The notes beneath the pieces are model-generated. The model saw nothing but the letters and a program-made list of their open reading frames with translations, had not been told where the DNA came from and searched no databases. Both the position numbers and the translations under genes were made by a program. From Comamonas testosteroni TK102 (GTDB taxonomy: Bacteria > Pseudomonadota > Gammaproteobacteria > Burkholderiales > Burkholderiaceae_C), in contig NZ_CP006704.1 in NCBI RefSeq assembly GCF_000739375.1, forward strand, positions 310,001 through 374,000: a DNA stretch of 64,000 nucleotides. Direction: 5' to 3'. Position 1 is the stretch's first letter. Each line of letters begins with the position of its first letter. Below are positions 8,754-60,348 of the stretch, one piece after another.

Positions 8754-8818
8754 GTTCTTGCTTCAAAAAGTGGGCTGTATCCATGGCGCCGCGCATGAAA
8801 CCGGCGCGGCCCGATCCA

Positions 8819-8895: not shown

Positions 8896-8903
8896 TGTTT
8901 CAT

Positions 8904-10394: not shown

Positions 10395-10415
10395 GTTCTT
10401 GTGTGTCCCGCGCGT

Positions 10416-10715: not shown

Positions 10716-10927
10716 AGAAATTATTTAACAGGGCCGCCGCGTGTAAAGCAGTGTTTCTAACCCTGACAGTAGAAGTTATTCACAGGGGATACGGTATTAT
10801 CTCGGCTTTGCCGCAATACCTCCGTTCGGCTGGTCATTGTGCAAAAAATGCCCACTACCCAGACTCCATTACCTTACATCCCGGCGACGGCTAGCCGATG
10901 CGCAAGCCGTGCCTGAGAGGACCCTGA

Positions 10928-11971
<1,044 letters not shown>

Positions 11972-12136
11972 TCGCTGTGCAATGTGGTGTTTTGCGGCGC
12001 GCTGCATAGTGCGCGTACCGCAGCCACTTCCATGAACAAGGCCTGAGTCCGTGATACGCCTGCATACCGCGCTCTCTTATTGCATTCCTTCTGAATGGGA
12101 AGGCCGTGCGCACACGGCCATGCCCAGGGAGCGCAC

Positions 12137-13677: not shown

Positions 13678-13685
13678 GATGCATT

Positions 13686-13772
13686 CCCTCCTGAGTCGCT
13701 TCGTGCCTTCCTCCCTCTCGCTTCGCGAGGGAGGACGACAGCCTCGCTGCGGGACGGCCCTTGCTCGCTGTC
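13686..13772 (+). repeat. Post-stop hairpin element, copy b (mreD/mrdA)
   Basis: Starts 8 bases after the mreD stop with TCCTGAGTCGCTTCG. The middle stem is CCTCCC/GGGAGG instead of CCCCC/GGGGG, extended by TC/GA, and the outer stem is GACAGC/GCTGTC. A GC-rich tail with no strong ribosome binding site runs on almost to the mrdA start. Confidence 0.85.
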
Positions 13773-13836
13773 CTTGGGGCGAGGCACGCCGGTGGCGCAG
13801 CGCATGCGGGGCGGCTTTGTTTGCGGGTGTCGTCGC

Positions 13837-15789
13837 ATGATGGAGATTCGTAACACCGAAGTCGAGCTGCAGCGCTTTCGCATGCGCGCGGTCGTCATGG
13901 GCTGCGTGGTGTTCCTGGCGTTCTGTCTGCTGGTCTGGCGCCTGCTGGTGCTGCAGGTGGAGCGCCATGAGGAGTTTGCCGAGCGTGCCGAGAGCAACCG
14001 CACGGCGGTGGTGCCGATCGTGCCCAATCGCGGCCAGATCCTGGACCGCAACGGCGTGGTGCTGGCCACCAATTACTCGGCCTACACATTGGAGATCACG
14101 CGCTCCAAGGTCGAGGATCTGGACGAGACCATCGACGGGCTGTCCGAGGTCATGGAGATCACGCCGCGCGACCGTCGCAAGTTCAAGCGGCTCATGGATG
14201 ACTCCAAGAGCTTTGAGTCCATTCCGATCCGCTCGCGCCTGACGGACGAGGAAGTCGCCAAGTTCGCGGCCCAGCGCTATCGCTTTCCGGGTGTGGACAT
14301 CAAGGCGCGGCTGTTTCGCACCTACCCGCTCAAGGAAGCCGGCAGCCATTTGATCGGATACATCGGTCGTATCAATCAAAGGGAAAAGGAAGAGATCGAC
14401 GACTCCGATGATGCTGCCAACTACCGGGGCACCGAGGTCATGGGCAAGCTGGGCGCCGAGAAGAGCTATGAGCTGCAGCTGCACGGCCAGACCGGCTGGG
14501 AGGAAATGGAAACCTCGGCTGGCGGTCATGCCGTGCGTCGTCTGGGCAGTCGCCCCGCCACGCCGGGCCACAGCCTGCAACTGTCGGTGGACATCAAGCT
14601 GCAGAAGATGGTGGAAGAGCTCTACGGCAACCGCCGCGGCGTGGCTATCGCCATGGACCCGCGCAATGGCGAGGTGCTGGCCATGGTCAGCAAGCCGACC
14701 TACGACCCGAACTTGTTTGTCGACGGTATCGACCAGGAGAGCTGGAAGGCGCTCAACGAATCGCTGGATCGCCCCTTGCTCAACCGCTCCATGCGCGGCA
14801 CCTATCCCGTGGGCTCGACCTACAAGCCCTTTATGGGCCTTGCGGGCATAGAGACCGGCAAGCGCACGCCGGGCACGGTGATTCAGGACGGCGGCTCCTG
14901 GACTTTTGGCGGCCACACCTTCCGCTCCGGCCACGCGCTGGGGCCGGTGGATCTGGCGCGCGCCATCCAGCATTCCAGCAATGTCTATTTCTACACGCTG
15001 GCCAACGAGATGGGCGTGGATGCGATTCACGACTTCATGAAGCCGCTGGGCTTTGGCCAGATCACCGGTATCGACCTGCCCGGCGAGGTGCGCGGCGTGC
15101 TGCCCAGCAAGGAGTGGAAGCGCAAGACCTACAAGCGCGCCGCGCAGCAGCAATGGTTCGCGGGCGAGACGATTTCCCTGGGCATCGGCCAGGGCTACAA
15201 CAACTTCACCATCCTCCAGCTCTCGCATGCGCTGGCCACCCTGGTCAACAACGGCATGAGCTTCACGCCCCATGTGGGCAAGGAGCTGATCGACTCGGTC
15301 ACCGGCACGCGCACGGCCATTGTCCAGCCGGCGCCCGTCAATCTGGGCTTCAAGCAGAGCAATGTCGATGCCGTCAAGCGCGGCATGGTGGGGGTGGTGA
15401 CCGGCGGCACGGGGCGCGGCGTCTTCGGCAGTGCCAGCTATCTGTCGGGCGGCAAGACCGGCACGGCCCAGGCCGTGAGCGTGGGCCAGAAGGAAAAGTA
15501 CAACGCCGCGCGTCTGGCCGAGTACCAGCGCGACCACTCGCTCTATATCGCCTACGGTCCCGCCGAAGCGCCCAAGATTGCCGTGGCCGTGATCGTGGAG
15601 AACGCCGGCTTCGGTGCGGCGGCTGCCGCGCCTATCGCGCGCCGCATCCTGGACTACTGGCTGGTGGGCAACTACCCCAGCGAGGCCGATATCGCTGCCG
15701 TGCGCCAGGGTAAGGCGGGCGCACCGATTGGCACGCCGCGCCGTGTTGAAGATATCTCGGTGCTGTCCGACGACGAAACAGCACCCTGA
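13837..15789 (+). CDS. mrdA: Penicillin-binding protein 2 (peptidoglycan transpeptidase)
   Basis: The class B transpeptidase of the elongasome, crosslinking side-wall peptidoglycan in the periplasm. About 650 residues: membrane helix at 17-39, PBP dimer domain starting at PNRGQILDRNGVVLA, then the transpeptidase domain with GSTYKPF (catalytic Ser about 327), HSSNVYF and SGGKTGTAQ. I chose ATG 13837; ATG 13840 is directly adjacent and equally possible, and neither has a strong ribosome binding site because repeat-derived sequence lies just upstream. The expected partner rodA (mrdB) does not follow. Confidence 0.95.
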   Translation: MMEIRNTEVELQRFRMRAVVMGCVVFLAFCLLVWRLLVLQVERHEEFAERAESNRTAVVPIVPNRGQILDRNGVVLATNYSAYTLEITRSKVEDLDETIDGLSEVMEITPRDRRKFKRLMDDSKSFESIPIRSRLTDEEVAKFAAQRYRFPGVDIKARLFRTYPLKEAGSHLIGYIGRINQREKEEIDDSDDAANYRGTEVMGKLGAEKSYELQLHGQTGWEEMETSAGGHAVRRLGSRPATPGHSLQLSVDIKLQKMVEELYGNRRGVAIAMDPRNGEVLAMVSKPTYDPNLFVDGIDQESWKALNESLDRPLLNRSMRGTYPVGSTYKPFMGLAGIETGKRTPGTVIQDGGSWTFGGHTFRSGHALGPVDLARAIQHSSNVYFYTLANEMGVDAIHDFMKPLGFGQITGIDLPGEVRGVLPSKEWKRKTYKRAAQQQWFAGETISLGIGQGYNNFTILQLSHALATLVNNGMSFTPHVGKELIDSVTGTRTAIVQPAPVNLGFKQSNVDAVKRGMVGVVTGGTGRGVFGSASYLSGGKTGTAQAVSVGQKEKYNAARLAEYQRDHSLYIAYGPAEAPKIAVAVIVENAGFGAAAAAPIARRILDYWLVGNYPSEADIAAVRQGKAGAPIGTPRRVEDISVLSDDETAP

Positions 15790-15822
15790 CAAATTGATAG
15801 CTGTTAACGCTTGCTGTGTAAT
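15790..15822 (+). repeat. Half copy of the AGCTGCT palindromic repeat
   Basis: AAATTGATAGCTGTTAACGC then TTGCTGTG, in the 36-base gap between the convergent mrdA and TauE/SafE genes. It resembles half of the palindrome at 25288-25338. Confidence 0.5.
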
Positions 15823-15825
15823 GGT

Positions 15826-16584
15826 TTAACGCAGAAAAGCGTCATAAGCTGTTTTCAGAATCAGCAGGCTGACCACGCCGATGAAAATCGCGCGCACAAA
15901 GCCCGTGCCGTGGCGCAAGGCCATCCAGGTGCCCAGCATGCTGCCCAGCACATTGGCCACGGCCAGCGGGATGGCAAAGTGCCACCAGACATGGCCCTTG
16001 AGCGTGAACAGCAGCAGTGCCGCAGCGTTGGAGGCCAGATTCAGCAGCTTGGCGTTGGCCGAAGCGTTGAGGAAGTCATAGCCCAGCAGGCGCACGAACA
16101 GGAACACGAAAAAGCTGCCCGTGCCCGGGCCGAAGAAGCCGTCGTAGAAACCGATCAGCAGGCCGATGGCGCAGGCGGTCAACATCTCGGTACGGCCCGC
16201 CAGGCGCGGCTCGTGGTCACGGCCCAGCTCTTTTTTGGCCAGGGTGTAGCCCAGCACGCCCAGCAGGATGAAGGGCAGCAGCTTGCGCAGAAAATCGGGA
16301 GAGATCAGCGTGACGGCCCAGGCGCCGAGAAAAGCGCCCACCAGCGTCGTGCCGATGGCGGGCAGCAGCGTGGCCCAGGTGATATGCACGCGCTTGCTGA
16401 ACTGCCAGGCGGAAATGGCCGTGCCCCAGACGGCGGCACTCTTGTTGGTGCCAAACAGCGTGGCGGGCGTGGTGGTGGGGAAGGCCGCAAACATGGCTGG
16501 CACCAGAATCAGTCCGCCGCCTCCCACGATGGCGTCAACAAACCCGGCCAGGGCCGAGGCGAGGGAAACAAGAATCCATTCCAT
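15826..16584 (-). CDS. TauE/SafE family (DUF81) membrane permease
   Basis: A 252-residue polytopic inner-membrane protein. The N-terminal pattern AGFVDAIVGGGGLILVP and the mid-protein GFYDGFFGPGTGSF form the duplicated motif of the TauE/SafE family, whose members export or import sulfite, sulfoacetate or other organosulfur anions. The substrate here is unknown. ATG 16584 directly precedes the first helix, and upstream in-frame codons encode low-complexity residues unlike a membrane protein. It is convergent with mrdA and probably transcribed on its own. Confidence 0.9.
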   Translation of the reverse strand: MEWILVSLASALAGFVDAIVGGGGLILVPAMFAAFPTTTPATLFGTNKSAAVWGTAISAWQFSKRVHITWATLLPAIGTTLVGAFLGAWAVTLISPDFLRKLLPFILLGVLGYTLAKKELGRDHEPRLAGRTEMLTACAIGLLIGFYDGFFGPGTGSFFVFLFVRLLGYDFLNASANAKLLNLASNAAALLLFTLKGHVWWHFAIPLAVANVLGSMLGTWMALRHGTGFVRAIFIGVVSLLILKTAYDAFLR

Positions 16585-16744
16585 GGAGCAAATGCCTGCA
16601 ATTGGTGCATGCCGTGAACAGCGCGCGTTGCCGCTGGGGCGGCGCTGCAGAAGGCGGGATGAAGAAGCCAGGGGAGAGCGGGCGTGAATGCCCGAAGATG
16701 GCGCCGGCATTGTCGCACCGCCGCCTCAAGCTTGTGCGCAGGCA

Positions 16745-16774
16745 TAAAAAAAGCGCCCACTGAGGGGCGCTTTT
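16745..16774. terminator. Bidirectional hairpin terminator between the GMC and TauE/SafE genes
   Basis: AAAAGCGCCC / GGGCGCTTTT, a perfect 10-bp stem with a 6-base loop. On the minus strand it ends in a run of T, so it can stop transcripts coming from the GMC gene or from a promoter in the gap. The 575-base gap (16585-17159) otherwise holds an AT-rich stretch (about 16915-17020) and no convincing gene. Confidence 0.8.
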
Positions 16775-17003
16775 GAACGCATCTTTGATGCTTTTTATGT
16801 GTATTGGTCTGGTTGTGTCGAGTTGTCTCCTCGGCCCTCCATGCTGCTTCGTGGAGCAGCGAGAGTGACGAGAATGTAAGGGCTGCACCTGTGTGGTGCA
16901 TTGGGGAATTCCCTTGGGTTATATCAAAAACGTCTGACAAATGAATCAGAAAGTTTTGTGACATCCTTATGAGTTTTGAGATTTTTCAAAAACAATAGCG
17001 TCA

Positions 17004-17019
17004 TTTGCTTATAAGCAAA
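17004..17019. promoter_or_regulatory. Perfect 16-bp palindrome, possible operator
   Basis: TTTGCTTATAAGCAAA is perfectly self-complementary and lies in the AT-rich part of the gap upstream of the TauE/SafE gene. It has the size and symmetry of a dimeric repressor site. No regulator gene is adjacent, so the role is open. Confidence 0.4.
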
Positions 17020-17159
17020 AGATCTCAGCAGACTTCGGTGCTTGGGGCAGGAGGCCGGACGGAAACTTCCCGCGCGGATGGACTTTGGGCCGCCGCGACT
17101 GCTTTCAGGCCCGGACAGGCTTTTCGGAGTGAATCGCTAGGTTTCTGAGCGGCCGCTTA

Positions 17160-18827
17160 TCAGGCGGCAGTGCGAATCCACTCCGCAGCCTTCTCGGCCA
17201 TCATCAGCGTCGGGCTGTTGGTGTTGCCGCTGGTGATGGAGGGCATGGCGCCAGCATCGACCACGCGCAGGCCCTGCACGCCGCGCACCCTGAAGCGGCT
17301 GTCCAGCACCGCCATCGGGTCGTCGGTACGTCCCATCTTGGTCGTGCCCACGGGATGGAAGATGGTGGTGGCAATATCCCCGGCTAGGCGTGCCAGGTCC
17401 TCGTCGCTCTGATATTGCAGCCCGGGCTTGAACTCCTCGGGCTGGAAGGGCGCAAGCGCGGGCTGGCTGACGATGCGGCGCGTGACGCGCAGACTGTCGG
17501 CAGCCACCTGCTGGTCTTCGGCCGTGGAGAGGTAGTTGGGCGCGATGGCAGGAGCCTGGCGGAAGTCGGCGCCCTGCAACTGCACCGTGCCGCGGCTGCT
17601 GGGGTTGAGATTGCAGACGCTGGCGGTGAAGGCGGCGAAGTCATGCAGCGGCTCGCCGAAGGCGTCCAGCGACAGGGGCTGCACGTGATATTCGAGATTG
17701 GGGTGGGCCTGTGCCGGGTCGCTGCGCGTGAAGGCTCCGAGCTGCGAGGGCGCCATGCTCATGGGGCCGCTGCGCCGCAGCGCGTATTCGAGGGCGATGG
17801 CCGCCTTGCCCCAGAGACTGCCGGCCATGGTGTTGAGCGTCTTGGCGTTGTGCACCTTGTAGACCGAACGAATTTGCAGGTGGTCCTGCAGATTGGCGCC
17901 CACGCCGGGCAGGTCGCGGCGCACGGCCACGCCATGGCGCTGCAGCAGCTCGCCGGGGCCTATGCCCGACAACTGCAGGATATGCGGTGAGTTCACCGCG
18001 CCCGCGCAAAGCAGCACCTCGCACCCGGCCTGCACGGTCACCATCCCATCGCCGGTCCAGACTTCGGCGCCGGTGCAGCGCTGGCTGCCGTCCGGCAGAT
18101 CTTCCAGAATCAGGCGCCGCACCTGGGCGCGGGTCCACATCTCGAAGTTGGGGCGGCCATAGCAGGTAGGGCGCAGAAAGGCCTTGGCCGTATTCCAGCG
18201 CAGGCCTGATTTCTGGTTGACCTCGAAGTAGCCCACGCCTTCGTTGCAGCCGCGGTTGAAATCGTCGGTGGCCGGGATGCCGGCCTGCTGCGCAGCCTGG
18301 GCGAAGGCATCGAGTATGTCCCAGCGCAAGCGCTGCTTTTCCACCCGCCATTCGCCGCTGCCGCCGGTGCTCCTGCTGCCGTGCAGGCGTTTGAACTCCT
18401 CGCTGGCGCTGCCTCCGGCGTCGAGACGCCAATGGTCTTCGTGCTGTCGGAAGGCCGGCAGCACCTGTTCCCAGCGCCAGGTGTCGTCGCCGGTCAGCTG
18501 CGCCCATTGCTCGTAGTCGCGGGCCTGGCCGCGCATATAGATCATGCCGTTGATGCTGGAGCAGCCGCCCAGGGTCTTGCCGCGCGGGTAGCGCAGGCTG
18601 CGGCCGTTGAGGCCGGGGTCGGGTTCGGTCTGATAGAGCCAGTCGGTGCGCGGGTTGCCTATGCAATAGAGATAGCCGACGGGGATGTGGATCCAGTGGT
18701 AATCATCCTTGCCGCCGGCTTCGATCAGCAGAACCCGGTGATTCTTGTTGCGGGTGAGACGGTTGCACAGCAGCGAACCTGCTGTGCCGCCGCCGATGAC
18801 GATGTAGTCGAACTGGGTGTCACTCAT
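17160..18827 (-). CDS. GMC family FAD-dependent oxidoreductase (choline dehydrogenase-like)
   Basis: A 555-residue flavoenzyme that oxidises an alcohol group; family members include choline and other aliphatic alcohol dehydrogenases. The Rossmann motif is at the N-terminus (DYIVIGGGTAGSLLCNRL), GMC signature 1 at GKTLGGCSSINGMIYMRG, and the catalytic His in HPVGTTKMG. The second active-site position lies in SGNTNSPTLMMAEKAA at the C-terminus. ATG 18827 starts five residues before the FAD motif. No betaine aldehyde dehydrogenase or betI is adjacent, so a choline role is not supported; the substrate is unknown. It is divergent from the lipid-transport operon. Confidence 0.93.
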   Translation of the reverse strand: MSDTQFDYIVIGGGTAGSLLCNRLTRNKNHRVLLIEAGGKDDYHWIHIPVGYLYCIGNPRTDWLYQTEPDPGLNGRSLRYPRGKTLGGCSSINGMIYMRGQARDYEQWAQLTGDDTWRWEQVLPAFRQHEDHWRLDAGGSASEEFKRLHGSRSTGGSGEWRVEKQRLRWDILDAFAQAAQQAGIPATDDFNRGCNEGVGYFEVNQKSGLRWNTAKAFLRPTCYGRPNFEMWTRAQVRRLILEDLPDGSQRCTGAEVWTGDGMVTVQAGCEVLLCAGAVNSPHILQLSGIGPGELLQRHGVAVRRDLPGVGANLQDHLQIRSVYKVHNAKTLNTMAGSLWGKAAIALEYALRRSGPMSMAPSQLGAFTRSDPAQAHPNLEYHVQPLSLDAFGEPLHDFAAFTASVCNLNPSSRGTVQLQGADFRQAPAIAPNYLSTAEDQQVAADSLRVTRRIVSQPALAPFQPEEFKPGLQYQSDEDLARLAGDIATTIFHPVGTTKMGRTDDPMAVLDSRFRVRGVQGLRVVDAGAMPSITSGNTNSPTLMMAEKAAEWIRTAA

Positions 18828-19140
18828 GGGCAGATCAAAAGGCCGGGTACGGCTTGGCGGGCAGGCCAAACCTTGAGGCAGTCATGGGCAAAAAGGCCAA
18901 CTCATTAGGTGCGATGACCTTGTCGGTGTCGATAGGGAAAGCGCTCGCATACTCCTGTTTTGGAAGCTGCCGATGCAATGCTGGTTTTGGCTTTGGCGGG
19001 TTTTTGATAAAAATTGCAACGCTATCATTGCGTGGCATGCGGCAGTGACCTACGTGCTGCGTTTGGCATGCTCCTCGCTTGGCGCGTTATGCTGGCCCCT
19101 GCGGCTAGCCCGTCTCCCTCATGTCCTAGGAAGCTTTTCT
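18828..19140. other. Intergenic region between GMC gene and mlaE-like gene
   Basis: 313 bases separating two divergent genes. The part at 18985-19040 is AT-richer (TTTTTGATAAAAATTGC, then CTATCAT) and is the likeliest promoter region for the lipid-transport operon, but I could not settle on a clean -35/-10 pair. No further gene is supported. Confidence 0.4.
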
Positions 19141-20268
19141 TTGCCCAGCTCAGACCAACTACCTCAATGCCCGCTGCAGTCCCGCGATGGTCAGCAATGG
19201 GCCGTGCCTGTGGGCCGCTGGAGTGCTGCCGAGCTGGGCGATCGCCATATCTGGCGTCGGCTGGCGCCACAGATCAGGGCGGTTCCCAAGGGCGTGGCCT
19301 GGGATTTGCAGCAAATGGTCTGGTTGGACCATATCGGCGCGCAGCTGCTGTGGGAGCAATGGGGCAGGACCTGGCCGGCCCGGCTGCTGACGACCAAGAA
19401 TCAGCGTTCCATGCTGGAGCGTGTGGCCAGGTTCAGCGAAGTGCCCGAGGCCAAGCCCGAGCCCTCGGGATGGATGTGCGAGGTCAATCGACTGGGTCAG
19501 ATGGTGATCGACGCCTGCGGGCACTTTTCCAACTTGATTCAACTGGTCGGTCAGTTGCTGCTGGACTGTCTGCGCCTGCTGCGCAATCCGTTTCGTGGCC
19601 CCTGGCGCGATATTTCGGGCCACCTCTATGCGACGGGGGCGACAGCCTTGCCGATCACGGCACTGGTCGGCTTTCTGATCGGCGTGGTGCTGGCCTATCT
19701 GATGGCGCTGCAGCTGCGCCAGTTCGGGGCCGAGTCCTTTATCGTCAATATTCTGGGCATTTCGCTGATCCGCGAGTTGGGGCCGCTGCTGGCGGCGATT
19801 CTGGTGGCAGGACGCAGCGGCTCGGCCATTACGGCACAGATCGGCGTGATGCGCGTGACCGAAGAACTCGATGCCATGCAGGTCATGGGCATCTCCCAGG
19901 GCTACCGGCTGGTGCTGCCGCGTGCGCTGGCGCTGGCCGTGTCCATGCCGCTGGTGGCTTTGTGGACCATTTTGGCGGCACTCGCCGGCGGCATGGTCGC
20001 GGCGGACCTGACCATGGACATCACGCCGTCTTACTTCATTCAAAGCCTGCCTGCGGCCGTGAAGATCGGCAATCTGGTGCTGGCCATGGGCAAGTCCGTG
20101 GTGTTTGGCGTGCTGATTGCCCTGATCGGCTGCCACTGGGGCCTGAAGGTAGAGCCCAATACCCAGAGCCTGGGGCGCGGCACCACGGCGGCGGTGGTGT
20201 CCTCCATCACCATGGTCATCATCGTGGATGCCATCTTTGCCATCCTCTTCAGAAACGTGGGCTTTTAG
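19141..20268 (+). CDS. mlaE: MlaE-type ABC permease with N-terminal STAS-like extension
   Basis: Permease of a retrograde phospholipid (Mla/MCE) ABC transporter in the inner membrane. Residues about 1-120 are soluble and resemble a STAS/MlaB-like unit (WSAAELGDRHIWRRLAPQ, then VWLDHIGAQLLWEQWG). The rest is the MlaE membrane domain with ISLIRELGPLLAAILVAGRSGSAITAQIG and EELDAMQVMGI. I chose the TTG at 19141 because AGGAAG sits 7 bases before it; the frame is open further upstream (to an ATG at 18973), but that stretch is Cys/Trp-rich and unlike the family. It leads an operon with the ATPase, MCE and lipoprotein genes. A fused MlaB-like domain would explain why no separate mlaB is present. Confidence 0.85.
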   Translation: MPSSDQLPQCPLQSRDGQQWAVPVGRWSAAELGDRHIWRRLAPQIRAVPKGVAWDLQQMVWLDHIGAQLLWEQWGRTWPARLLTTKNQRSMLERVARFSEVPEAKPEPSGWMCEVNRLGQMVIDACGHFSNLIQLVGQLLLDCLRLLRNPFRGPWRDISGHLYATGATALPITALVGFLIGVVLAYLMALQLRQFGAESFIVNILGISLIRELGPLLAAILVAGRSGSAITAQIGVMRVTEELDAMQVMGISQGYRLVLPRALALAVSMPLVALWTILAALAGGMVAADLTMDITPSYFIQSLPAAVKIGNLVLAMGKSVVFGVLIALIGCHWGLKVEPNTQSLGRGTTAAVVSSITMVIIVDAIFAILFRNVGF

Positions 20269-20277
20269 GATGAACTA

Positions 20278-20350
20278 CCCCCTGTGCGGCTTCGCCGCCT
20301 CCCCCCAAGGGAACGACACCTTCGCAGCGGGGCGGCCCTTGCTCGGCGTC
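20278..20350 (+). repeat. Post-stop hairpin element, copy c (mlaE/mlaF)
   Basis: Starts 9 bases after the mlaE stop: CCCCCTGTGCGGCTTCGCCG, then a C-run/GGG arm and the conserved GCGGGGCGGCCCTTGCTCGG core. The first hairpin is perfect (GCGGC/GCCGC); the outer stem has one mismatch (GACACC versus GGCGTC). A related tail runs to the start of the ATPase gene. Confidence 0.85.
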
Positions 20351-20394
20351 TCTGGCTTGGGTTGCGCCAGCCTCGTGGAGCGGGGGGCGCGCAA

Positions 20395-21255
20395 ATGACA
20401 GAGGTGATGCACAACCGCCGTATCGAGGGGGCTGTGGGCGACTACGCGCCGCCGCAGGATGTGAAGCCCCTGGTGCAGGCGGTGGACCTGTGGACCGAGT
20501 TTGGCGAGGGTGCATCGCGCTTTGCCGTGCACCAGGACTTGAATTTCGATGTCTACCCGGGCGAGATTCTGGCCCTGGTGGGCGGCTCCGGCACGGGCAA
20601 GACCGTGCTGCTGCGCCAGATCCTGGGCCTGCTTTCGCCTTCGCGCGGCACGGTGACCGTAGATGGCCGGCCCTCGCGCGAGGTCATCAGCGGTGAGCTG
20701 GCGGCGAGTCAGGTGGGCATGCTGTTCCAGCAGGGGGCGCTGTATTCGGCCTTCAATGTGCTGGACAACATCGCGTTTGCATTGCGCGAGCAGGGCACCT
20801 TGCCCGATGCCGTGGTGCGCGATGCGGCCATGGTCAAGCTGCAGATGGTGGGTCTCAAGCCGGAACATGCCTCGCGCATGCCCGCAGACCTGTCGGGCGG
20901 CATGATCAAGCGTGTGGCGCTGGCGCGTGCGCTGATGATGGATCCGCCGCTGCTGCTGCTGGACGAACCCACCGCCGGACTCGATCCCAAGGGCTCTGAC
21001 GAGTTCTGTGAGCTGCTGCGCGATATCCATGCCGAGCTGGGCCTGACCGTGATCATGGTCACTCACGACCTGGATACGCTGTTTGCGCTGTCCACGCGTG
21101 TGGCCGTGCTGGCCGAGAAAAAAGTGCTGTTCACCGGAGCCCCACGCGACGTGGCCCAGATCAAGCACCCGTTTATCGAACATTTCTTCCAGGGAGAGCG
21201 TGGCCGCCGAGCCATGGCCCCGGTGCAAGGCGGCGCGGCCGCAGAGGAAAGCTGA
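20395..21255 (+). CDS. mlaF: MlaF-type ABC transporter ATP-binding protein
   Basis: Cytoplasmic ATPase powering the MlaE permease. The 286-residue protein has Walker A GGSGTGKT, the Q-loop in MLFQQGALYSAFNV, ABC signature LSGGMIKR, Walker B LLLLDEPTAGLDP and the H-loop VTHD. The LSGGMIKRVALARAL form is typical of the Mla subgroup. ATG 20395 follows GTGGAGCGGGG. Upstream in-frame codons belong to the repeat element and were excluded. The stop overlaps the next gene by one base (TGATG). Confidence 0.95.
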   Translation: MTEVMHNRRIEGAVGDYAPPQDVKPLVQAVDLWTEFGEGASRFAVHQDLNFDVYPGEILALVGGSGTGKTVLLRQILGLLSPSRGTVTVDGRPSREVISGELAASQVGMLFQQGALYSAFNVLDNIAFALREQGTLPDAVVRDAAMVKLQMVGLKPEHASRMPADLSGGMIKRVALARALMMDPPLLLLDEPTAGLDPKGSDEFCELLRDIHAELGLTVIMVTHDLDTLFALSTRVAVLAEKKVLFTGAPRDVAQIKHPFIEHFFQGERGRRAMAPVQGGAAAEES

Positions 21256-22202
21256 TGGAAAACAAGTCCCATGCCATGGCTGCCGGCATTTTCGTGCTGG
21301 TGGTTGCGGCCCTGCTGGCAGGGCTGGCCGTCTGGCTGACGCGCGACAACCGCGAATACCAGCTCTACGAAATGTCCACCAAGGATGGTGTCAGCGGTCT
21401 GCAGCCCCAGGCCACGGTGCGCTACAAGGGCGTACCCGTGGGCAAGGTGGTGCGCATCGGTTTTGACCCGCAGATTCCCGGCAATGTGCTGATTCGCATT
21501 GCCGTGGGTGAGGACACGCCGGTCACGCCGGCCACTTATGCACAGCTCGGCTATCAGGGGGTGACGGGGCTGGCCCATATCCAGCTCGACGACGACAGCC
21601 GGGCTTCGCAGCCGCTCAAGCCCGGGCCCAGCGGCCTGCCGCGCCTGCCCATGAAGTCCTCGCCGCTGAACATGCTGGCCGACCAGGGCCCGGTGCTGCT
21701 GGAGCGGGTTGACGAAATTTCACGCCGTCTCAATGCCATGCTGGGCGAGGACAACCAGAAGCGCGTGAGCGCGGCGCTGGACAATATCGCGGCTGCATCC
21801 GGGGGGATCAAGGATCTGGCCGAGACCATGAACAAGACGGCCAAGGACTTTCCTCAGCTCACGGCAGATGCGCACCAGACCCTGCAGTCCCTGACCAAGG
21901 CCGGCAATGCCGCCACGGGCGTGGCGACCGATCTGCAGCAGACCGTGCGCAAGGTGAATGCGCCCGACGGCCCGCTGCAGCAGATTGCCGAGGGCACGCA
22001 GGCCCTGTCGCAGGCGGCCGAATCGCTGGGGCGCAGCACCTTGCCGCGCATGAACGGCGCGGCCGACGATGTCTCGCGCGCTGCGCGCACCATGGGCGCG
22101 GCGGCAGGCCGCTTCAATGACAACCCGCAATCCGTCATCTACGGCCAGGGCCTGGGCCAGCCGGGCCCCGGCGAGCCCGGTTTCGTGGCTCCGGCCAAGT
22201 GA
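21255..22202 (+). CDS. mlaD: MlaD-type MCE domain substrate-binding protein
   Basis: A 315-residue periplasmic protein held by one N-terminal helix (about 9-28), followed by one MCE domain (about 38-115, with SGLQPQATVRYKGVPVGKV) and a long helical region with Thr/Ala/Gln-rich repeats (about 140-290). MCE domains form hexameric lipid-binding rings attached to MlaE. The C-terminal helices resemble PqiB/YebT-type needle segments more than the short E. coli MlaD tail. It is coupled to the ATPase gene. Confidence 0.93.
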   Translation: MENKSHAMAAGIFVLVVAALLAGLAVWLTRDNREYQLYEMSTKDGVSGLQPQATVRYKGVPVGKVVRIGFDPQIPGNVLIRIAVGEDTPVTPATYAQLGYQGVTGLAHIQLDDDSRASQPLKPGPSGLPRLPMKSSPLNMLADQGPVLLERVDEISRRLNAMLGEDNQKRVSAALDNIAAASGGIKDLAETMNKTAKDFPQLTADAHQTLQSLTKAGNAATGVATDLQQTVRKVNAPDGPLQQIAEGTQALSQAAESLGRSTLPRMNGAADDVSRAARTMGAAAGRFNDNPQSVIYGQGLGQPGPGEPGFVAPAK

Positions 22203-22312
22203 AGCGGCAACAAGGACACGACTTGCGAAAATTCGGACCAGGCAGGCGGTTTCTCAATGGAAATGCCTGCTGCTCATCCATCCTGGCTGGCCTAAGTCCC
22301 TAAGGAATCAAT

Positions 22313-22996
22313 ATGGCAGACACAAAGATTTCATTCACCGGCCGTGGAGCATGGCGATTGCTGGGCACTTCTTCGCTGGTGCTGGCGCTTGCCGCCTGCT
22401 CGGGCCTGCCCACGGCACCCACGCAGCCGGTGCGCTATGACCTGGGCGTGGCCGACCTGGCCGCGCCGGCCGCGAATGCAGCTGCCGCTTCGGTGGCGCC
22501 GGTGCCGCTGGTGCTGGCCGAAGTCCAGGCTCCGGGTCTGCCCGAGGGCCTGACGGCCATGTTCTACCGCCTGAACTACAGCGACAGCCAGCAGCTGCGT
22601 GCCTACCAGAACGCGCGCTGGAGCCTGCCTCCGTCCCAGATGGTGGAGCAGCGCCTGCGCATGCGTCTGGGGCTGGAGCGCCCCGTGCTCTCGGGCAAGG
22701 ACAATGTCCGCCCCCTGCTGGCCGACAAGCGCTCGATTGCGCAGCTGCGCGTGACGGTGGACGAGTTCAACCAGGTCTTTGACAGTGCCAGCAGCAGCCG
22801 TGCGCTGCTGCGTCTGAGCGCCAGCCTGATCGGTGCCGGCGAGAGTGCAGGCAACCAGTTGCTGGGCCAGAAGGTGTTCACGGTCGAAGTGCCATCCAGC
22901 TCAGCCGATGCGGCAGGAGGTGCCCAGGCCATGGCGCGCGCCGTGGACGAGGCGGCGGCCCAGCTCAGCCGCTGGCTGCAGGGCTACGGGCGCTAG
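22313..22996 (+). CDS. ABC-type transport auxiliary lipoprotein (PqiC/DUF330-like)
   Basis: A 227-residue lipoprotein with the lipobox LALAACSG (Cys about 29), so it should be lipid-anchored, probably to the outer membrane. The body fits the ABC_trans_aux (PqiC) family: a YRLNYSDSQQLRAYQNARW stretch and WL at the end. In E. coli PqiC works with the MCE protein PqiB. Its place as the last gene behind an MlaFED set suggests it replaces MlaC/MlaA as outer-membrane partner. The start has a good TAAGGA site. Confidence 0.88.
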   Translation: MADTKISFTGRGAWRLLGTSSLVLALAACSGLPTAPTQPVRYDLGVADLAAPAANAAAASVAPVPLVLAEVQAPGLPEGLTAMFYRLNYSDSQQLRAYQNARWSLPPSQMVEQRLRMRLGLERPVLSGKDNVRPLLADKRSIAQLRVTVDEFNQVFDSASSSRALLRLSASLIGAGESAGNQLLGQKVFTVEVPSSSADAAGGAQAMARAVDEAAAQLSRWLQGYGR

Positions 22997-23027
22997 GTTC
23001 TGTCCGGCCCCAAGTAGCGCCGTTCGG

Positions 23028-23053
23028 AAAGCCCTGCCATGCAGGGCTTTGTT
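23028..23053 (+). terminator. Intrinsic terminator of the lipid-transport operon
   Basis: AAAGCCCTGC / GCAGGGCTTT, a perfect 10-bp stem with CAT loop, then GTTG. It lies 32 bases after the lipoprotein stop codon. Confidence 0.8.
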
Positions 23054-23166
23054 GATTCCGGGCAAGTTCTGGGTCTGGCGGCAGCCGCTTTGCTGATATG
23101 GGTCAATGGACGGACCTGGTCTTGTTCTTAAGCTGCCAGTTCCTCAATCTCGCACAAGGAACTGCC

Positions 23167-23664
23167 ATGGCCAGCCTCGAATGGAATGCCGCTCTCATCC
23201 TGGATTTTCCCGTCATGGACGCGGTGCATGAGGAGTTCGTCGCCCTGCTGGCCCAGGTGGAGGCAGCCGCCGACGAGCAGCTGTGTGCGCTCTGGGACGA
23301 GCTGATTGCCCACACCCAGCAGCACTTCGATCAGGAGGACCGCTGGATGCAGACCACGGGATTTGCCACGGGCAACTGCCACAGCCAGCAGCACAAGGTG
23401 GTGCTGGCCGTCCTGCGCGAGGGGGCGGTCAAGGGAGAGCAAGGTGATCTGGCCACCATCCGCCATATGGCGGCCGAGCTGGGTCCTTGGTTCAGCCACC
23501 ATGCGCAGAACATGGATGCCGCCCTGGCCCTGCACATGCGGCGCGCGGGCTTTGACCCGGTGACCGGCGCGGTGCTGGTGCCCGAGGCTTTGCCTGCAGA
23601 GCCGATCACCGGCTGTGGTGGTGCCTGTGGTGAAGCTGAAAAAAGGGAAGTGGTAACTGCCTGA
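23167..23664 (+). CDS. Hemerythrin domain protein
   Basis: A 165-residue four-helix protein predicted to bind a di-iron centre for O2 or NO sensing or storage. The expected ligands can be seen in order: H-E in MDAVHEEFVALL, H in ELIAHTQQHFDQED, HSQQH in the third helix and H in LALHMRR. A Cys/Gly-rich tail (ITGCGGACGE) is unusual and could bind metal. ATG 23167 has AAGGA at proper spacing, and residues encoded further upstream are not hemerythrin-like. It stands alone, convergent with marC. Confidence 0.9.
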   Translation: MASLEWNAALILDFPVMDAVHEEFVALLAQVEAAADEQLCALWDELIAHTQQHFDQEDRWMQTTGFATGNCHSQQHKVVLAVLREGAVKGEQGDLATIRHMAAELGPWFSHHAQNMDAALALHMRRAGFDPVTGAVLVPEALPAEPITGCGGACGEAEKREVVTA

Positions 23665-23687
23665 AACTGGCACGCGCTAAGGCGAGA

Positions 23688-23760
23688 GACAGCGAGCAAG
23701 CGCTGCCGCGCAGCGGAGCTGCCGTCCCCCTTGGGGGAAGCGGCGTAGCCGCTCAGGGGG
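23688..23760 (-). repeat. Post-stop hairpin element, copy d (after marC)
   Basis: Begins immediately after the marC TGA: CCCCCTGAGCGGCTACGCCG, then CCCCC-AA-GGGGG, ending with the outer stem GGCAGC/GCTGTC (one G-U pair). The orientation is that of marC, although the neighbouring gene downstream is convergent. Confidence 0.85.
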
Positions 23761-24408
23761 TCAAGGGTATATGGCCGGAGAGGCCAGGATGGGGAAGATC
23801 TTGATCAGCCCTCCCGCCATCACCTCGATGGCCAGCGCGGCCAGAATCAGGCCCATGAGCCGGGTCATCACATTGATGCCGGTCTTGCCCAGCACGCGGG
23901 CAATCGGGTGGGCCAGCGAAAAGCACACCATGATGGCGGCCGCCACCACCACGCCATAGCCGACCAGCGCCACATGCTGCCAGATGGTGCGCGCCTGATC
24001 GGCATAGATCACCACGGTGGACATGGCGGCAGGCCCGGTCAGCAGCGGAATGGTCAGAGGCACGACGGCGATGCTGTTGCCCTCGGCGGCTTTTTCGACG
24101 CCGGCTGCCAGCGTGGCATTGTTGGGCCGGTCTTCGGCAGGGCGGGCGTTGAGCATGTTCATTGCACTGATCAGCAGCAGCAGACCGCCGCCGACCTGAA
24201 AGCTCTGCAGCGAGATGTTGAAGAACTGCAGAATCTGCAACCCCAGCAGCGCACAGACTGCGATCACGCAGAAGGCAGCAAAGGCGGCGGTGCGAATGGT
24301 CTGCCAGCGCTGCTCTGCATCGAAGCCGGCCGTGTAGTGGATGAAGAACGGAACAATGGCCAGCGGGTTGATGATGGCGACCAGGGTGATCAGCGGCTTG
24401 ATATCCAT
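23761..24408 (-). CDS. MarC family integral membrane protein
   Basis: A 215-residue inner-membrane protein with about six helices. It shows the family's N-terminal INPLAIVPFF and the internal PLTIPLLTGPAAMSTVV. MarC proteins were named after the E. coli mar locus but have no proven role in drug resistance; the function is unknown. ATG 24408 follows GGAGGCGAGCTGTA, a strong ribosome binding site. The TGA stop directly abuts the post-stop element. It is divergent from the dienelactone hydrolase gene. Confidence 0.9.
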   Translation of the reverse strand: MDIKPLITLVAIINPLAIVPFFIHYTAGFDAEQRWQTIRTAAFAAFCVIAVCALLGLQILQFFNISLQSFQVGGGLLLLISAMNMLNARPAEDRPNNATLAAGVEKAAEGNSIAVVPLTIPLLTGPAAMSTVVIYADQARTIWQHVALVGYGVVVAAAIMVCFSLAHPIARVLGKTGINVMTRLMGLILAALAIEVMAGGLIKIFPILASPAIYP

Positions 24409-24590
24409 TACAGCTCGCCTCCGGGCATGGGGGGCTTGTTGCGACTGTCTGCCTTTTGTGGGGCCGGGATAGCTGGCATGAACACTCCTGTGAAAAAATG
24501 AGCGAATCGTCGACGCGGCACCAGCCATTACAGCATTGCTGGCGATCGCGTCGCGGATTTCCCTTTTGAACCATGTTAAGGAGCTTCGCA

Positions 24591-25283
24591 ATGGGCAGCT
24601 TTGTTGAACTGACAGCCGTGGATGGCGTAAAAACCCCCGCTTATGTGGCCATGCCCGAGGGCCAGGCACGCGGTGCCATCGTGGTGCTGCAGGAGATCTT
24701 CGGCGTGAACTCGCATATCCGCTCCGTGGCAGACCGCTATGCTGCCCAGGGCTATGTGGCCGTGGCCCCCGCCATGTTTGACCGCGTCAAGCCCGATGTG
24801 GAGCTGGGCTACACCGAAGATGATATGAAGGCCGGCTTTGCTCTCAAGACTGCGGTGGAAGCCCTGCCCGAGCCTGGCGCGCTGCGCGATGTGGAGGCGG
24901 CCGTGGCCCATGCAGCGAAGCTGGTGCCCGGCGGCAAGATCGGTGTGGTGGGCTTTTGCTGGGGCGGCCTGCTGACCTGGCGCTCGGCCTGCAACCTGGC
25001 CAGTGTTTCTGCTGCAGTCTGCTATTACGGCGGCGGCATGACGGGCGAGGTGGAAGCCAGCCGTCAGGCGCTGTGCCCGGTGCTGGCCCACTTCGGCAGC
25101 AAGGATCACTACATCTCGCTGGAGTCCGTCGAAGCCTTCAAGAAGGCACAGCCCCAGGCACAAGTGCATGTCTACGACGCCGACCACGGCTTCAACTGCG
25201 ACCAGCGCGGCTCCTACAACGAAGCCGCTGCTGCGTTGGCAGGTGAGCGCACTCTGGCCTTCTTCGCCCAGCATCTGGGTTGA
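24591..25283 (+). CDS. Dienelactone hydrolase family protein
   Basis: A 230-residue cytoplasmic alpha/beta hydrolase. Family members open dienelactones in chlorocatechol breakdown, but many homologues outside such clusters act on unknown esters. The nucleophile is the Cys of GFCWGG (about 124), as in true dienelactone hydrolases, with the acid in HFGSKDHYI and the His in DADHGFNCD. ATG 24591 follows AAGGAGCTTCGCA. No catechol genes are nearby, so the substrate stays open. An efficient terminator follows. Confidence 0.9.
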   Translation: MGSFVELTAVDGVKTPAYVAMPEGQARGAIVVLQEIFGVNSHIRSVADRYAAQGYVAVAPAMFDRVKPDVELGYTEDDMKAGFALKTAVEALPEPGALRDVEAAVAHAAKLVPGGKIGVVGFCWGGLLTWRSACNLASVSAAVCYYGGGMTGEVEASRQALCPVLAHFGSKDHYISLESVEAFKKAQPQAQVHVYDADHGFNCDQRGSYNEAAAALAGERTLAFFAQHLG

Positions 25284-25287
25284 TATA

Positions 25288-25338
25288 AAAACAATAGCTG
25301 CTTGTGCTTGATATATAAGCGCAAGCAGCTGTTTTTAT
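25288..25338 (+). terminator. Palindromic repeat acting as terminator (full AGCTGCT copy)
   Basis: AGCTGCTTG-T-GCTT / AAGC-G-CAAGCAGCT stem with a GATATAT loop, flanked by AAAAACA and GTTTTTA. It is the only complete copy of this repeat family in the window. The long stem and T-run make it a likely terminator of the dienelactone hydrolase gene, and it could work in both directions. Confidence 0.8.
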
Positions 25339-25374
25339 CTAAAGCCCGTTGCCGCTGGGCGGTCCCCCATCAGA

Positions 25375-25448
25375 GACATCAAGCAAGCGCCGCCGCGCAG
25401 CGAGGATGTCGTCCCCCTTGGGGGAAGGCGCGGAAGCGCCTCAGGGGG
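25375..25448 (-). repeat. Post-stop hairpin element, copy e (after corA)
   Basis: Begins immediately after the corA TGA: CCCCCTGAGGCGCTTCCGCG. The first hairpin is GGCGC/GCGCC instead of GCGGC/GCCGC, the middle CCCCC-AA-GGGGG, and the outer stem GACATC/GATGTC instead of GACGCC/GGCGTC. These paired changes support a conserved RNA fold. Confidence 0.88.
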
Positions 25449-26636
25449 TCATTCTTTTTCTTCGCTTTCCAGGTAGCGGCGGCGCCAGAAATAGGCCACC
25501 AGCACCACGGTGATGATCACCATGGCCGCCAGGGCCCAGATGAAGCCGTCCTTTTTGTGCACGAAGGGGATGAACTCGAAGTTCATGCCGAAGATGCCGG
25601 CAATCAGGTTCAGCGGCAGAAAGATGGCCGTCACGGTGGTCAGCGTGCGCATGATGTCGTTGGCTCGGTTGCTCTGTGCCGAAAAGTGCATCTGCACGGC
25701 GGTCTCGGCGCTTTGCTCCATGCGGTGAATATGGTGGGTCACGCGCTCTATATGTTCGAGCACGTCGCGTGAGCGCACGCGCAGCAACTCACGCTCATGC
25801 TGGCGCGCGGGGGTGTGCTCGGGCGGCCAGCCCTCCAGTGCCTCGGTCCAGTCCTGCACGGCGGCGCGCTGGTCTTCGCAGATTTCATCCAGCTGGTGCA
25901 GCGCCAGGCGCACATCGAGCACGCTGGCCCAGTTGCTGAAGCGCTTGTTGGGCTTGAGCAGCGCCATCTGCCAGTGGTCGATCTGGCGCGTCAGCGTGCG
26001 GCGCAGGTCCAGATAGCCGTCCACCATGCCGTTGACCATGCGCAGCATCAGGTCCGCAGGCTCCACGGGCATCTTGCTGCTGACCTGGCGACCGTCAGTC
26101 TTGGCGGGGCCGGAGATCAGGCGCTGCCAGAAGTTTTCCAGCACAAAGCAGCCGTCGGGATGCACGGACAGCAGGATCTGGTCATACAGCGCAAAGCCCA
26201 CGGGCTGCGTTTCCACGCGTTGCAGCACCGGCGCTTCGCGCTGGCCGCTGTGGGCCAGGCTGTGGGATGGCGGCGGGGCGCTGGATGCCGCACTGCCGGT
26301 GCCGGCCACCAGGGCAGGCGGTGCGGCCACGGCGGGCGAGGCGTGGCTGCCGTTGAGCGGCGGCAGATGGGCGTTGGCCAGACGGCGGAACACCAGCACG
26401 TCGTATACCGAGGTGTAGTCGTAGTTGGAAGGGATGGCCGGATTCAGCAGGTCGGAGACATGCAGGTCCACGAGAGCGGAGCCGCCCAGCCTGGTCAGCA
26501 TGGTCTGAATGGCCGGCAGCTGAGTCTCCAGCTCCGAGCGTGCGCAGGAGACCCAGTAAAACCCCGTCGTCGCAGCCTGCGTTGGCAGTCCGTCAACAGG
26601 CTGGGCATAGAGGGGAGAGATATGCAGCACGCGCAT
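25449..26636 (-). CDS. corA: CorA family magnesium/divalent cation transporter
   Basis: A 395-residue protein: a large cytoplasmic N-terminal part, a long helix region, and two C-terminal membrane helices with the GMN selectivity motif (350-352, IFGMNFEF) at the end of the first. CorA pentamers carry Mg2+ or Co2+; the ZntB branch carries Zn2+ and shares this architecture. An Ala/Pro/Ser-rich insert (about 95-130) interrupts the N-terminal domain and is unusual. The TGA stop abuts the post-stop element. Confidence 0.9.
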   Translation of the reverse strand: MRVLHISPLYAQPVDGLPTQAATTGFYWVSCARSELETQLPAIQTMLTRLGGSALVDLHVSDLLNPAIPSNYDYTSVYDVLVFRRLANAHLPPLNGSHASPAVAAPPALVAGTGSAASSAPPPSHSLAHSGQREAPVLQRVETQPVGFALYDQILLSVHPDGCFVLENFWQRLISGPAKTDGRQVSSKMPVEPADLMLRMVNGMVDGYLDLRRTLTRQIDHWQMALLKPNKRFSNWASVLDVRLALHQLDEICEDQRAAVQDWTEALEGWPPEHTPARQHERELLRVRSRDVLEHIERVTHHIHRMEQSAETAVQMHFSAQSNRANDIMRTLTTVTAIFLPLNLIAGIFGMNFEFIPFVHKKDGFIWALAAMVIITVVLVAYFWRRRYLESEEKE

Positions 26637-26731
26637 GGGAATAGGCAGTCTCGATGTCAGTGCAAAAGCAGATGCAAAAACGGCCCGTGCAAGCTGCCTG
26701 GGCCGTCAGATCATGCCTGAAATGCTCTCAG

Positions 26732-59635: not shown

Positions 59636-59720
59636 CCCCCTGAGCGGCTAACGCCGCCTCCCCCTCTCTCTTCGGGAGGGGGACGACGCCCTCGCTGCGG
59701 GGCGGCCCTTGCTCGGCGTC
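59636..59720 (+). repeat. Post-stop hairpin element, copy f (atpD/atpC)
   Basis: Starts 10 bases after the atpD stop: CCCCCTGAGCGGCTAACGCC, then CCCCCTC/GAGGGGG, then the conserved CTCGCTGCGGGGCGGCCCTT core closed by a perfect outer stem GACGCC/GGCGTC. It lies inside the atp operon. The tail GTGCAAGTTTCAGG resembles that of copy d. Confidence 0.88.
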
Positions 59721-59777
59721 TATGGCTTGGGGTGTGCAAGTTTCAGGACCAGTTTTAACCTTTTCCAAGGAGCAAAG

Positions 59778-60194
59778 ATGAACACCATCCACGTTGATGT
59801 GGTCAGTGCCGAAGAGTCCATCTTCTCCGGTGAAGCGCGCTTTGTCGCCTTGCCCGGCGAAGCGGGCGAGCTGGGCATTTATCCCCGCCACACACCGCTG
59901 ATCACCCGCATCAAGCCGGGTTCGGTGCGCATCGAAATGCCTGATGGCAGCGAAGAGTTCGTCTTCGTGGCCGGTGGCATTTTGGAAGTGCAACCCAACT
60001 GCGTGACCGTGCTGTCCGACACCGCCATCCGCGGCAAGGATCTGGACGATGAAAAGGCGCAAAAGGCCAAGGCTGCCGCTGAGGAAGCCCTGAAGAACGC
60101 CAAGGGCGAGCTGGATATCGCTCGTGCACAGTCCGAGCTGGCCGTCATGGCAGCTCAGATTGCCGCTCTGCGCAAGTACCGCCAGAAGCGTTGA
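59778..60194 (+). CDS. atpC: ATP synthase subunit epsilon
   Basis: A 138-residue regulatory F1 subunit: an N-terminal beta sandwich ([22 protein letters not shown], split as [19 protein letters not shown]) and a C-terminal helical hairpin. ATG 59778 has AAGGAGCAAAG. The 152-base gap from atpD, filled by the repeat element, is longer than in the usual operon. Confidence 0.97.
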
Positions 60195-60229
60195 TGTCTG
60201 GTGCCCTGGAGCACCTGCATCAGCAAAGA

Positions 60230-60255
60230 AAAGCCACCGCATGCGGTGGCTTTTT
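60230..60255 (+). terminator. Terminator of the atp operon
   Basis: AAAGCCACCGC / GCGGTGGCTTT with a T-run, 36 bases after the atpC stop. Confidence 0.93.
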
Positions 60256-60348
60256 CATGCCTGTGCATCCTTGAGGTTCAGGCGCATCGCACTTGATACC
60301 TCGGAGGGCAAGGCGCGCAATACTCGGTATTTCGGAGTGCTGCAGGGC

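Follow-up and report, generated by a model that had tools for sequence, protein, structure and literature searches.

Palindromic repeats positioned behind stop codons in Comamonas testosteroni TK102: an insertion-polymorphic family that probably belongs to the BRE superfamily

Integron attC sites lie behind stop codons in a fixed orientation and act as folded single strands. The REP and BIME sequences of enterobacteria and pseudomonads are dispersed palindromes with up to hundreds of copies, part of which are situated within 15 nt of stop codons, where an effect on terminating ribosomes has been proposed (PMC12306157). E. coli REPs located less than 16 nt from a stop are reported to stall ribosomes and to lower translation, and REPs within 15 nt of a stop account for 446 of 4,072 elements by RepRanger or 260 of 496 in an earlier study (PMC12306157). 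Tabulated REPs are about 21-37 nt long and are characterized by a GTAG-like foot and a RAYT gene (Nunvar et al., PMC2817692). Hot et al. 2011 (PMC3110155) reported BRE, a repeat of about 90 bp (75-91 bp) with high G+C content that is mostly intergenic and chromosomal and whose hosts include Bordetella, Polaromonas, Acidovorax and Delftia, among others. According to the same report, Comamonadaceae genomes possess 1-29 BRE copies, some loci carry tandem copies, and the function of the repeat was left open (PMC3110155).

The window analyzed in this work is a 64,000-nucleotide stretch of the C. testosteroni TK102 chromosome (contig NZ_CP006704.1, positions 310,001 to 374,000). The original prediction described six copies of a structured element in the window, each starting 0-10 nt past a stop codon and oriented in the sense of the preceding gene, and both statements were confirmed for all six copies (Table 1). 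Using R2, a covariance model of the full element built from 34 copies, we detected the window copies with 80.6-97.9 bits, compared with 18.7 bits for the next match in the window. Since that next match reaches only about 19 bits and the genome as a whole gives at least 150 matches, a chance origin of the six copies is excluded. The proposed three-part layout and the listed stem variants are also correct, including the single outer-stem mismatch in each of copies a and c. Regarding the extents, the 3' end had been placed too early, as the element continues for about 20-25 nt through a weaker tail near GCGCCAGTTTT. The window copies have a G+C content of 0.70-0.73 and a density of 6 per 64 kb, compared with 1.6 expected from 150 copies in 6.06 Mb.

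Table 1. Positions, neighboring genes and scores of the six repeat copies in the window, and structural parts of copy f.
Feature	Window position	Strand	R2 score (bits)	Stop codon to C-run (nt)	Context or details
Copy a	8795-8895	-	97.9	8	Past gatA (TIGR00132; 8904-10394, -), ahead of gatB (GatB models; 7296-8753, -)
Copy b	13687-13798	+	80.6	9	Past mreD (13159-13677, +), ahead of mrdA/PBP2; mreD, mrdA junction: TIGR03426, TIGR03423
Copy c	20278-20376	+	87.8	9	Past MlaE-type permease gene (TIGR00056; 18973-20268, +); downstream gene, ABC ATPase (PF00005; 20395-21255, +)
Copy d	23661-23760	-	97.5	0	Abuts TGA of MarC-family gene (PF01914; 23761-24669, -); convergent hemerythrin-domain gene (PF01814)
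Copy e	25349-25448	-	92.1	0	Abuts TGA of CorA-family gene (PF01544; 25449-26636, -); convergent dienelactone hydrolase family gene (PF01738)
Copy f	59636-59746	+	93.9	10	Past atpD (TIGR01039; 58216-59625, +), ahead of atpC (NF001847; 59778-60194, +)
Copy f, first C-run	59636-59640	+			Competes for the G-run 59678-59682
Copy f, first hairpin	59644-59657	+			GCGGC/GCCGC; pairs 10-20 and 11-19 covary, exceeding each of the 60 null simulations
Copy f, middle hairpin	59660-59682	+			Second C-run 59660-59664 with G-run 59678-59682
Copy f, outer stem	59685-59720	+			GACGCC 59685-59690 / GGCGTC 59715-59720; pairs 45-72 and 56-63 above all nulls
Copy f, core inner pairs	59694-59695/59711-59712 and 59699-59701/59706-59708	+
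Copy f, 3' tail	59721-59746	+			Weakly conserved; consensus ctGGC..tGCGCCAGTTTT (141-copy flanked alignment)

A scan of the window against Rfam 15, at E up to 1 and at the gathering threshold, gave no family match at the copies. An RNAI match below the gathering threshold (E=0.22) is located away from them, at 60154-60258. Separately, a strong 18-pair terminator-like palindrome (AATAGCTGCTTGTGCTTG...CAAGCAGCTGTT) occupies window positions 25293-25333 on the plus strand, about 10 bases past the dienelactone hydrolase family gene, and its arm AGCTGCTTG[CT]GCTT recurs 11 times in 0.91 Mb, both strands counted.

The complete genome (one contig, 6,062,703 bases) contains at least 150 copies. This count is a lower bound, as it comprises the best 150 of 3,923 candidates scored with the first model, 148 of them at E<0.001; with R2, all 150 scored candidates pass 1e-5. 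The borders were determined by aligning 141 copies together with flanks of 40 and 80 nt, after removal of copies below 40 bits and of identical cores. The 5' border is sharp at CCCCCTGAG (CCCCC) and the 3' border lies near GCGCCAGTTTT; outside of them there is no strong conservation, and only a weak ATGAAnCA precedes the C-run. The element is 99-125 nt long in the alignments; short copies measure about 75-85 bp when counted up to where the outer stem closes and more with the tail and the middle loop, and some copies possess extra modules in the first loop or next to the core.

The copies crowd near the contig start, which is the presumed origin and has a DnaA-like motif nearby: the numbers per half megabase up to 6.0 Mb are 28, 18, 12, 2, 3, 3, 4, 3, 13, 21, 17 and 21 (145 of the 150 copies). 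The region of 1.5-4.0 Mb, around the presumed terminus, holds 15 copies and is about six times sparser than the remainder. A replication-strand bias was rejected, plus- and minus-strand copies being mixed on both sides of the contig. Three identical copies (G000:C1 4353331, 4843939 and 5637258, G000 being the TK102 genome) occupy the same place in a threefold paralogous gene pair, where the identity is exact for 70-118 nt upstream and 167-225 nt downstream.

The placement of the copies was analyzed using genes called with a purpose-built codon model, which may be wrong in individual cases. For 140 of the 150 copies the preceding feature is the stop of a gene on the same strand and for 8 it is the start of a divergent gene; the other 2 fall within called genes. 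A sense position between -9 and +14 nt from the stop is found for 132 of the 150 (88%), compared with 4.0% for random intergenic placement on either strand (binomial 1e-162), thus the random arrangement relative to gene 3' ends and strand that would speak against the original prediction did not occur. Within their own gaps, with room left for a ribosome site, 121 of 129 copies lie no more than 14 nt from the stop against 44.5 expected; this count omits the 11 copies that overlap the stop, the 8 next to divergent genes and the 2 in genes, 21 in total. In co-directional gaps, 115 sense copies stand against 4 antisense ones. For 4 of the 18 placement exceptions, an uncalled sense frame of 262-301 codons ends within the -9 to +14 interval, and in 10 copies the stop is supplied by the element itself, as the TGA of CCCCCTGA.

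The stop triplet itself was considered as an insertion target. The host genes end with TGA in 86 cases, TAA in 40 and TAG in 6 (n=132), which resembles the usage of all 782 called genes (64/25/10%), therefore the triplet is not the target motif. A preference for operon gaps was also rejected: a co-directional next gene follows in 115 of 140 cases against a baseline of 567 of 767, which is only a slight excess. In Acidovorax kalamii the stop rule is followed by 19 of the 20 copies examined, which were picked by region and not by context from the 110 found (four matches of 19-24 bits were omitted, three of them being opposite-strand shadows), and 10 of 13 copies from two relatives of the genus keep to it. 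Placement is weaker in the Alcaligenaceae-type genome G095, which has a related core type: of its 24 arrays with a called upstream gene, 12 obey the rule and 19 are in sense; by eye, several of the remaining arrays follow a partial copy. G095 shares its family label with G130, which encodes the same LexA as Achromobacter sp. Root83. In the titles and abstract openings found by a literature search, with subscription journals outside its scope, stop anchoring is not described for this repeat.

Comparison of orthologous loci revealed clean empty sites. Between leuC and leuD, the TK102 genome (C1:1234075-1234158) and G309 are filled, the element starting right after the TAA, and G090 and G310 are empty, the TAA running into the common downstream sequence. 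Between leuD and leuB, the element is present in TK102, G319, G090 and G310 and absent from G309, and the outer-stem variant of TK102 and G319 differs from that of G090 and G310. The aligned stretches are 77-94% identical, and no convincing target-site duplication was found at the two empty sites. In place of the element, the leuC-leuD gap of G319 (L346:4523-4648) holds a 41-codon frame of the Entericidin family (PF08085, 30.1 bits).

Both G090 and G309 have the element at window sites b, c, e and f; of these two genomes, site a is filled only in G309 and site d only in G090. G311 lacks the element at all six sites. It is also missing from G314 and G320 at every site that can be aligned, which is five, site d being alignable only in G311 among these three genomes. 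Among 19 atpD-atpC loci, the element was found in TK102 and five relatives, and eight genomes of the genus carry other sequence after the stop (G311, G321, G314, G318, G313, G320, G312 and G316). In these eight, the sequence right after atpD is unrelated and in several of them includes a hairpin by eye; the G315 locus is a mosaic. Of the other loci, a contig end interrupts the one in G127, no answer was obtained for two, and two from other families have other sequence. The atpD replacements suggest a general slot for hairpins behind stops, but this explanation was rejected, as G311, G314 and G320 have nothing of the kind at sites a and c, where their genes leave a short gap or none and, at site c, abut or nearly so.

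The copy numbers in 15 genomes of the genus, two of which (G321 and G312) are 85% complete, are at least 150 in six, TK102 included, and 120, 85, 18, 9, 5, 4, 2, 1 and 1 in the others. Element-rich (85 to more than 150 copies) and element-poor (1-18 copies) species are thus sisters, and gain or loss is recent at the scale of the genus. The empty sites in relatives together with copy numbers from 1 to more than 150 within a genus mean that the six window copies are members of a large dispersed, insertion-polymorphic family of palindromic repeats and not merely a conserved 3' UTR motif. The same observations directly support the alternative that the original prediction had offered, a mobile palindromic unit preferring stop codons. 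Spread by plasmids or phages was rejected: two queries returned the same single partial match in 72,556 plasmid records and one query found no copies in phages, the share of Comamonadaceae in both sets not being normalized. The copies look like slowly mobile elements, and the pattern resembles a slow spread within chromosomes by copying and insertion, with copies that stay in place for long. The stem variants of orthologous copies at one site may differ considerably, for which gene conversion is another possible cause.

The distribution outside the genus was assessed with R2 and with a second model, R3; the matched lengths of both are set largely by their 99-100 model positions. In an order-wide survey (best 13 candidates per genome), R2 matches were found in 16 of 300 genomes, including 9 of the 10 listed from the family of C. 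testosteroni. The distant copies keep the 5' half (C-run, hairpin, C-run and G-run) and the outer stem, and differ in the core; some weak R2 matches, e.g. L254, are unlike the element by eye. Named Bordetella, Achromobacter and Acidovorax records were taken from a LexA scan. At E<=0.001, with the best 150 candidates scored in each genome, R2 identified 110 copies in Acidovorax kalamii, 65 in Acidovorax sp. Root219, 7 in Achromobacter sp. Root83, 6 in B. ansorpii, 4 in Bordetella genomosp. 2, 2 in Bordetella sp. LUAb4 and 1, which is doubtful, in B. hinzii, and none in B. genomosp. 5 and Comamonas sp. BIGb0124. At 1e-6, R3 matched 17 copies in Root83, 9 in LUAb4, 4 in B. ansorpii, 3 in genomosp. 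2 and one in TK102 (2.7e-7), and gave no match in B. hinzii, B. genomosp. 5 or Comamonas sp. BIGb0124. The repeat is thus present in Bordetella, in three of the five named genomes by R3 at 1e-6 and in four by R2 at 0.001, the fourth being the doubtful B. hinzii. Within the Achromobacter family, R3 matches at 1e-8 in 31 of 150 genomes (best 27 candidates each), and R3-type copies are detected by R2 with values of about 1e-5 to 1e-9. These Alcaligenaceae-type copies have a G+C content of 0.66-0.81, and in G095 they form arrays of 2-3 copies, separated by a few bases, at 13 of 25 loci.

The original prediction knew of no published name for the element; a probable one exists, BRE (PMC3110155). The two resemble each other in high G+C content, mostly intergenic and chromosomal location, tandem copies and overlapping host genera; their sizes are similar too, but the matched lengths, being set largely by the models, carry no independent weight. 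The named Bordetella and Achromobacter records hold repeats of the same layout. The framework common to the Bordetella-type repeats and the window copies consists of the 5' half and the outer stem, whereas the core of the Comamonas/Acidovorax type is unlike that of the Bordetella/Achromobacter type. The accessible text of PMC3110155 reports no stop anchoring, gene-orientation bias or covariation for BRE. The one published BRE transcript, the bprJ RNA, is encoded on the plus strand, antisense to BP3395 and BP3396, which are both on the minus strand, and its BRE occupies 3605317-3605401 within the intergenic region 3605200-3605405 (Table 1 of PMC3110155). By these coordinates, only 4 nt separate the end of the BRE from the intergenic border at which, by orientation, BP3396 has its stop, so its position is as the stop rule predicts, and the bprJ strand fits an antisense product without proving one. 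Judged by its description, the family is probably the Comamonadaceae branch of a BRE superfamily.

Taken together, we consider it fairly probable that the copies represent a non-coding, dispersed palindromic repeat of BRE type, about 100-125 bp long, which is inserted or kept at stop codons and acts in a REP-like way. New copies would arise by rare structure-dependent insertion, driven in trans by a putative chromosomal enzyme, and their retention or targeting would be confined almost entirely to the first few positions past a stop codon. The hairpins would then become the mRNA 3' end or the intercistronic spacer, i.e. the first structured RNA behind the terminating ribosome. Most likely they would act within the footprint of that ribosome, blocking 3'-5' exonucleases and loosening the coupling to the next gene, and such REP-like action on termination, on the stability of the 3' end and on next-gene coupling would most likely be the reason for retention at stops. 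The cut-off of placement near 12-14 nt matches a ribosome footprint. The Comamonas family, with 132 of 150 copies within 14 nt in a fixed orientation, is far stricter than the E. coli REPs. It also differs from attC sites, as by eye it lacks RYYYAAC/GTTRRRY ends, has several hairpins where attC has a single long imperfect stem, is mostly dispersed and carries no cassettes. A more specific form of mobility, which we regard as possible though somewhat unlikely, is a mobile family aimed at translation stops, inserting in one orientation at or near the base after any stop, perhaps with the antisense strand as its working form.

The covariation of the stem arms that had been proposed for the six copies was examined in 128 copies using a G-test with average-product correction and a null of 60 structure-free alignments simulated on a FastTree tree. 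Pairs 56-63, 45-72, 10-20 and 11-19 exceed the highest null value (142-184 against 103.9), and the next three ranked pairs are further outer-stem pairs just under the null maximum. The arms do covary, and an absence of covariation above background was not observed. In a set of 34 copies, two-sided changes occur in 11 of 22 pairs, and the covariation score is reached by none of 500 shuffles. Pair 10-20 shows a T-C mismatch in 22 copies. The middle helix of C-run and G-run is nearly invariant. The G-run is about equally complementary to the first and the second C-run (means of 4.65 and 4.59 of 5 pairs, n=115), hence two mutually exclusive pairings are available. The outer stem of the atpD-atpC copy reads GACGCC/GGCGTC in TK102, G090 and G309. 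G319 and G310 have GACGCT/AGCGTC instead, which amounts to a compensatory change from C-G to T-A. Most paired positions are unchanged between orthologues; decay is seen at site b in G309 (10-11 of 22 pairs the same) and at site c, mainly as one-sided breaks.

These data bear on an explanation in which the element is a cis-acting motif of the sense RNA, conserved in 3' UTRs and operon gaps, maintained by selection on the folded mRNA and spread by duplication and conversion instead of mobility. The sense orientation, the stop anchoring, the covariation and the compensatory atpD-atpC change between orthologues are all in line with it, as are the eight element-free relatives with other sequence, in several cases hairpin-forming by eye, right after atpD. 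However, the empty sites are clean and the copy numbers differ strongly within one genus, and sites a and c of G311, G314 and G320 have a short gap or none. The stems of the TK102 copies also speak against it. In 21 pairs, the first C-run left out, they contain 33 G.T and 57 A.C mispairs, although unpaired conserved control columns favor C>T (6.7%) over G>A (3.7%). The G.T share is 0.37 compared with 0.64 expected from these controls, thus a tolerance of sense-RNA G.U pairs is not seen in this genome. The covarying helices are predicted to pair better on the antisense strand: the core helix has a predicted pairing of 0.18 on that strand and 0.05 on the sense strand, and is higher antisense in 107 of 128 copies, although the minimum energy of the TK102 copies is lower for the sense strand. 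Sense-strand folding of the six window copies gives z from +0.9 to -2.7, copies a and c folding no better than shuffled sequence.

The Alcaligenaceae-type copies show the reverse wobble bias (10 G.T against 3 A.C), which favors the sense RNA, yet all helices used pair slightly better antisense in 40 of 60 of them. The 28 Acidovorax copies agree weakly with TK102 in the mispairs (2 G.T against 6 A.C) and show no strand difference in pairing probability. A strand-specific fold as a general rule was therefore rejected, being clear in TK102 and not reproduced across lineages. Because the wobble and pairing tests disagree between lineages, we claim neither strand as the folding one; selection on sense-RNA structure is not demonstrated in TK102. 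Hence, of the proposed selection on RNA structure in 3' UTRs, the placement and the covariation hold, and the A.C excess, the better antisense pairing and the two window copies that fold like shuffles count against it. The sense RNA motif as an explanation appears unlikely.

The same measurements can be read as pointing to the complementary strand, either as an antisense small RNA, transcribed back in the direction of the stop codon and able to pair with all element-bearing mRNAs, or as a folded single DNA strand that serves in mobility. The wobble asymmetry of TK102, and weakly that of Acidovorax, agree with this explanation, together with the higher antisense pairing of the core in TK102 and of all helices in the Alcaligenaceae-type copies, and with the bprJ RNA, which crosses a BRE on the plus strand between genes of the minus strand (PMC3110155). 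Nevertheless, the opposite wobble bias of the Alcaligenaceae type and the absence of a strand difference in Acidovorax pairing do not follow from it, no promoter is seen by eye within the conserved borders, the identity with BRE is only probable, and these measurements would fit a DNA fold as well as an RNA fold. We consider the complementary strand as the active form improbable.

A cassette acting as an intrinsic or Rho-related transcription terminator would account for G+C-rich hairpins past stops and for the weak tail GCGCCAGTTTT, and termination is one of the roles that Hot et al. (PMC3110155) name for other short bacterial repeats. It is nonetheless very improbable: a consensus scan of window positions 8700-26700 found no terminator-like site in copies a-e, 115 of the 150 copies are flanked on both sides by genes oriented the same way as the copy, and some are inside operons (gatA-gatB, atpD-atpC), where full termination would harm.

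The TK102 genome contains a lone Y1_Tnp (RAYT-like) gene (G000:C1:832907-833203; a 235 aa frame from ATG), which is not flanked by copies. Clear Y1_Tnp matches were found in six element-rich and three element-poor (G313, G314 and G320) genomes of the genus and weak ones in two rich and two poor genomes, while two poor genomes (G318 and G312) have none. A RAYT as the mobilizing enzyme is therefore not supported, as the gene is not linked to the copies and its occurrence does not clearly track their number, although both genomes without a match are element-poor. Although the palindromic, intergenic, high-copy family and this Y1_Tnp gene recall a REP element of a RAYT system, such a reading is already largely refuted and hardly credible, as the element alignments show no GTAG/GGAG-type foot, the element is several times longer than the REPs tabulated by Nunvar et al. 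(PMC2817692), no copies flank the RAYT-like gene, and the gene also occurs in the element-poor G313, G314 and G320, even if the match-free G318 and G312 are poor as well.

For the favored reading, a BRE-type repeat inserted or kept at stop codons, the closely related 3' ends, more than 100 per genome, come with empty-site controls in sister species. The family would also lend the little-followed BRE repeat a structural model and a wider host range. Such a set could show whether hairpins behind stop codons tune termination, mRNA decay or operon stoichiometry, or whether the elements aim at stops. If the latter is true, a stop-aimed family would spread ready-made structured 3' ends through essential operons.
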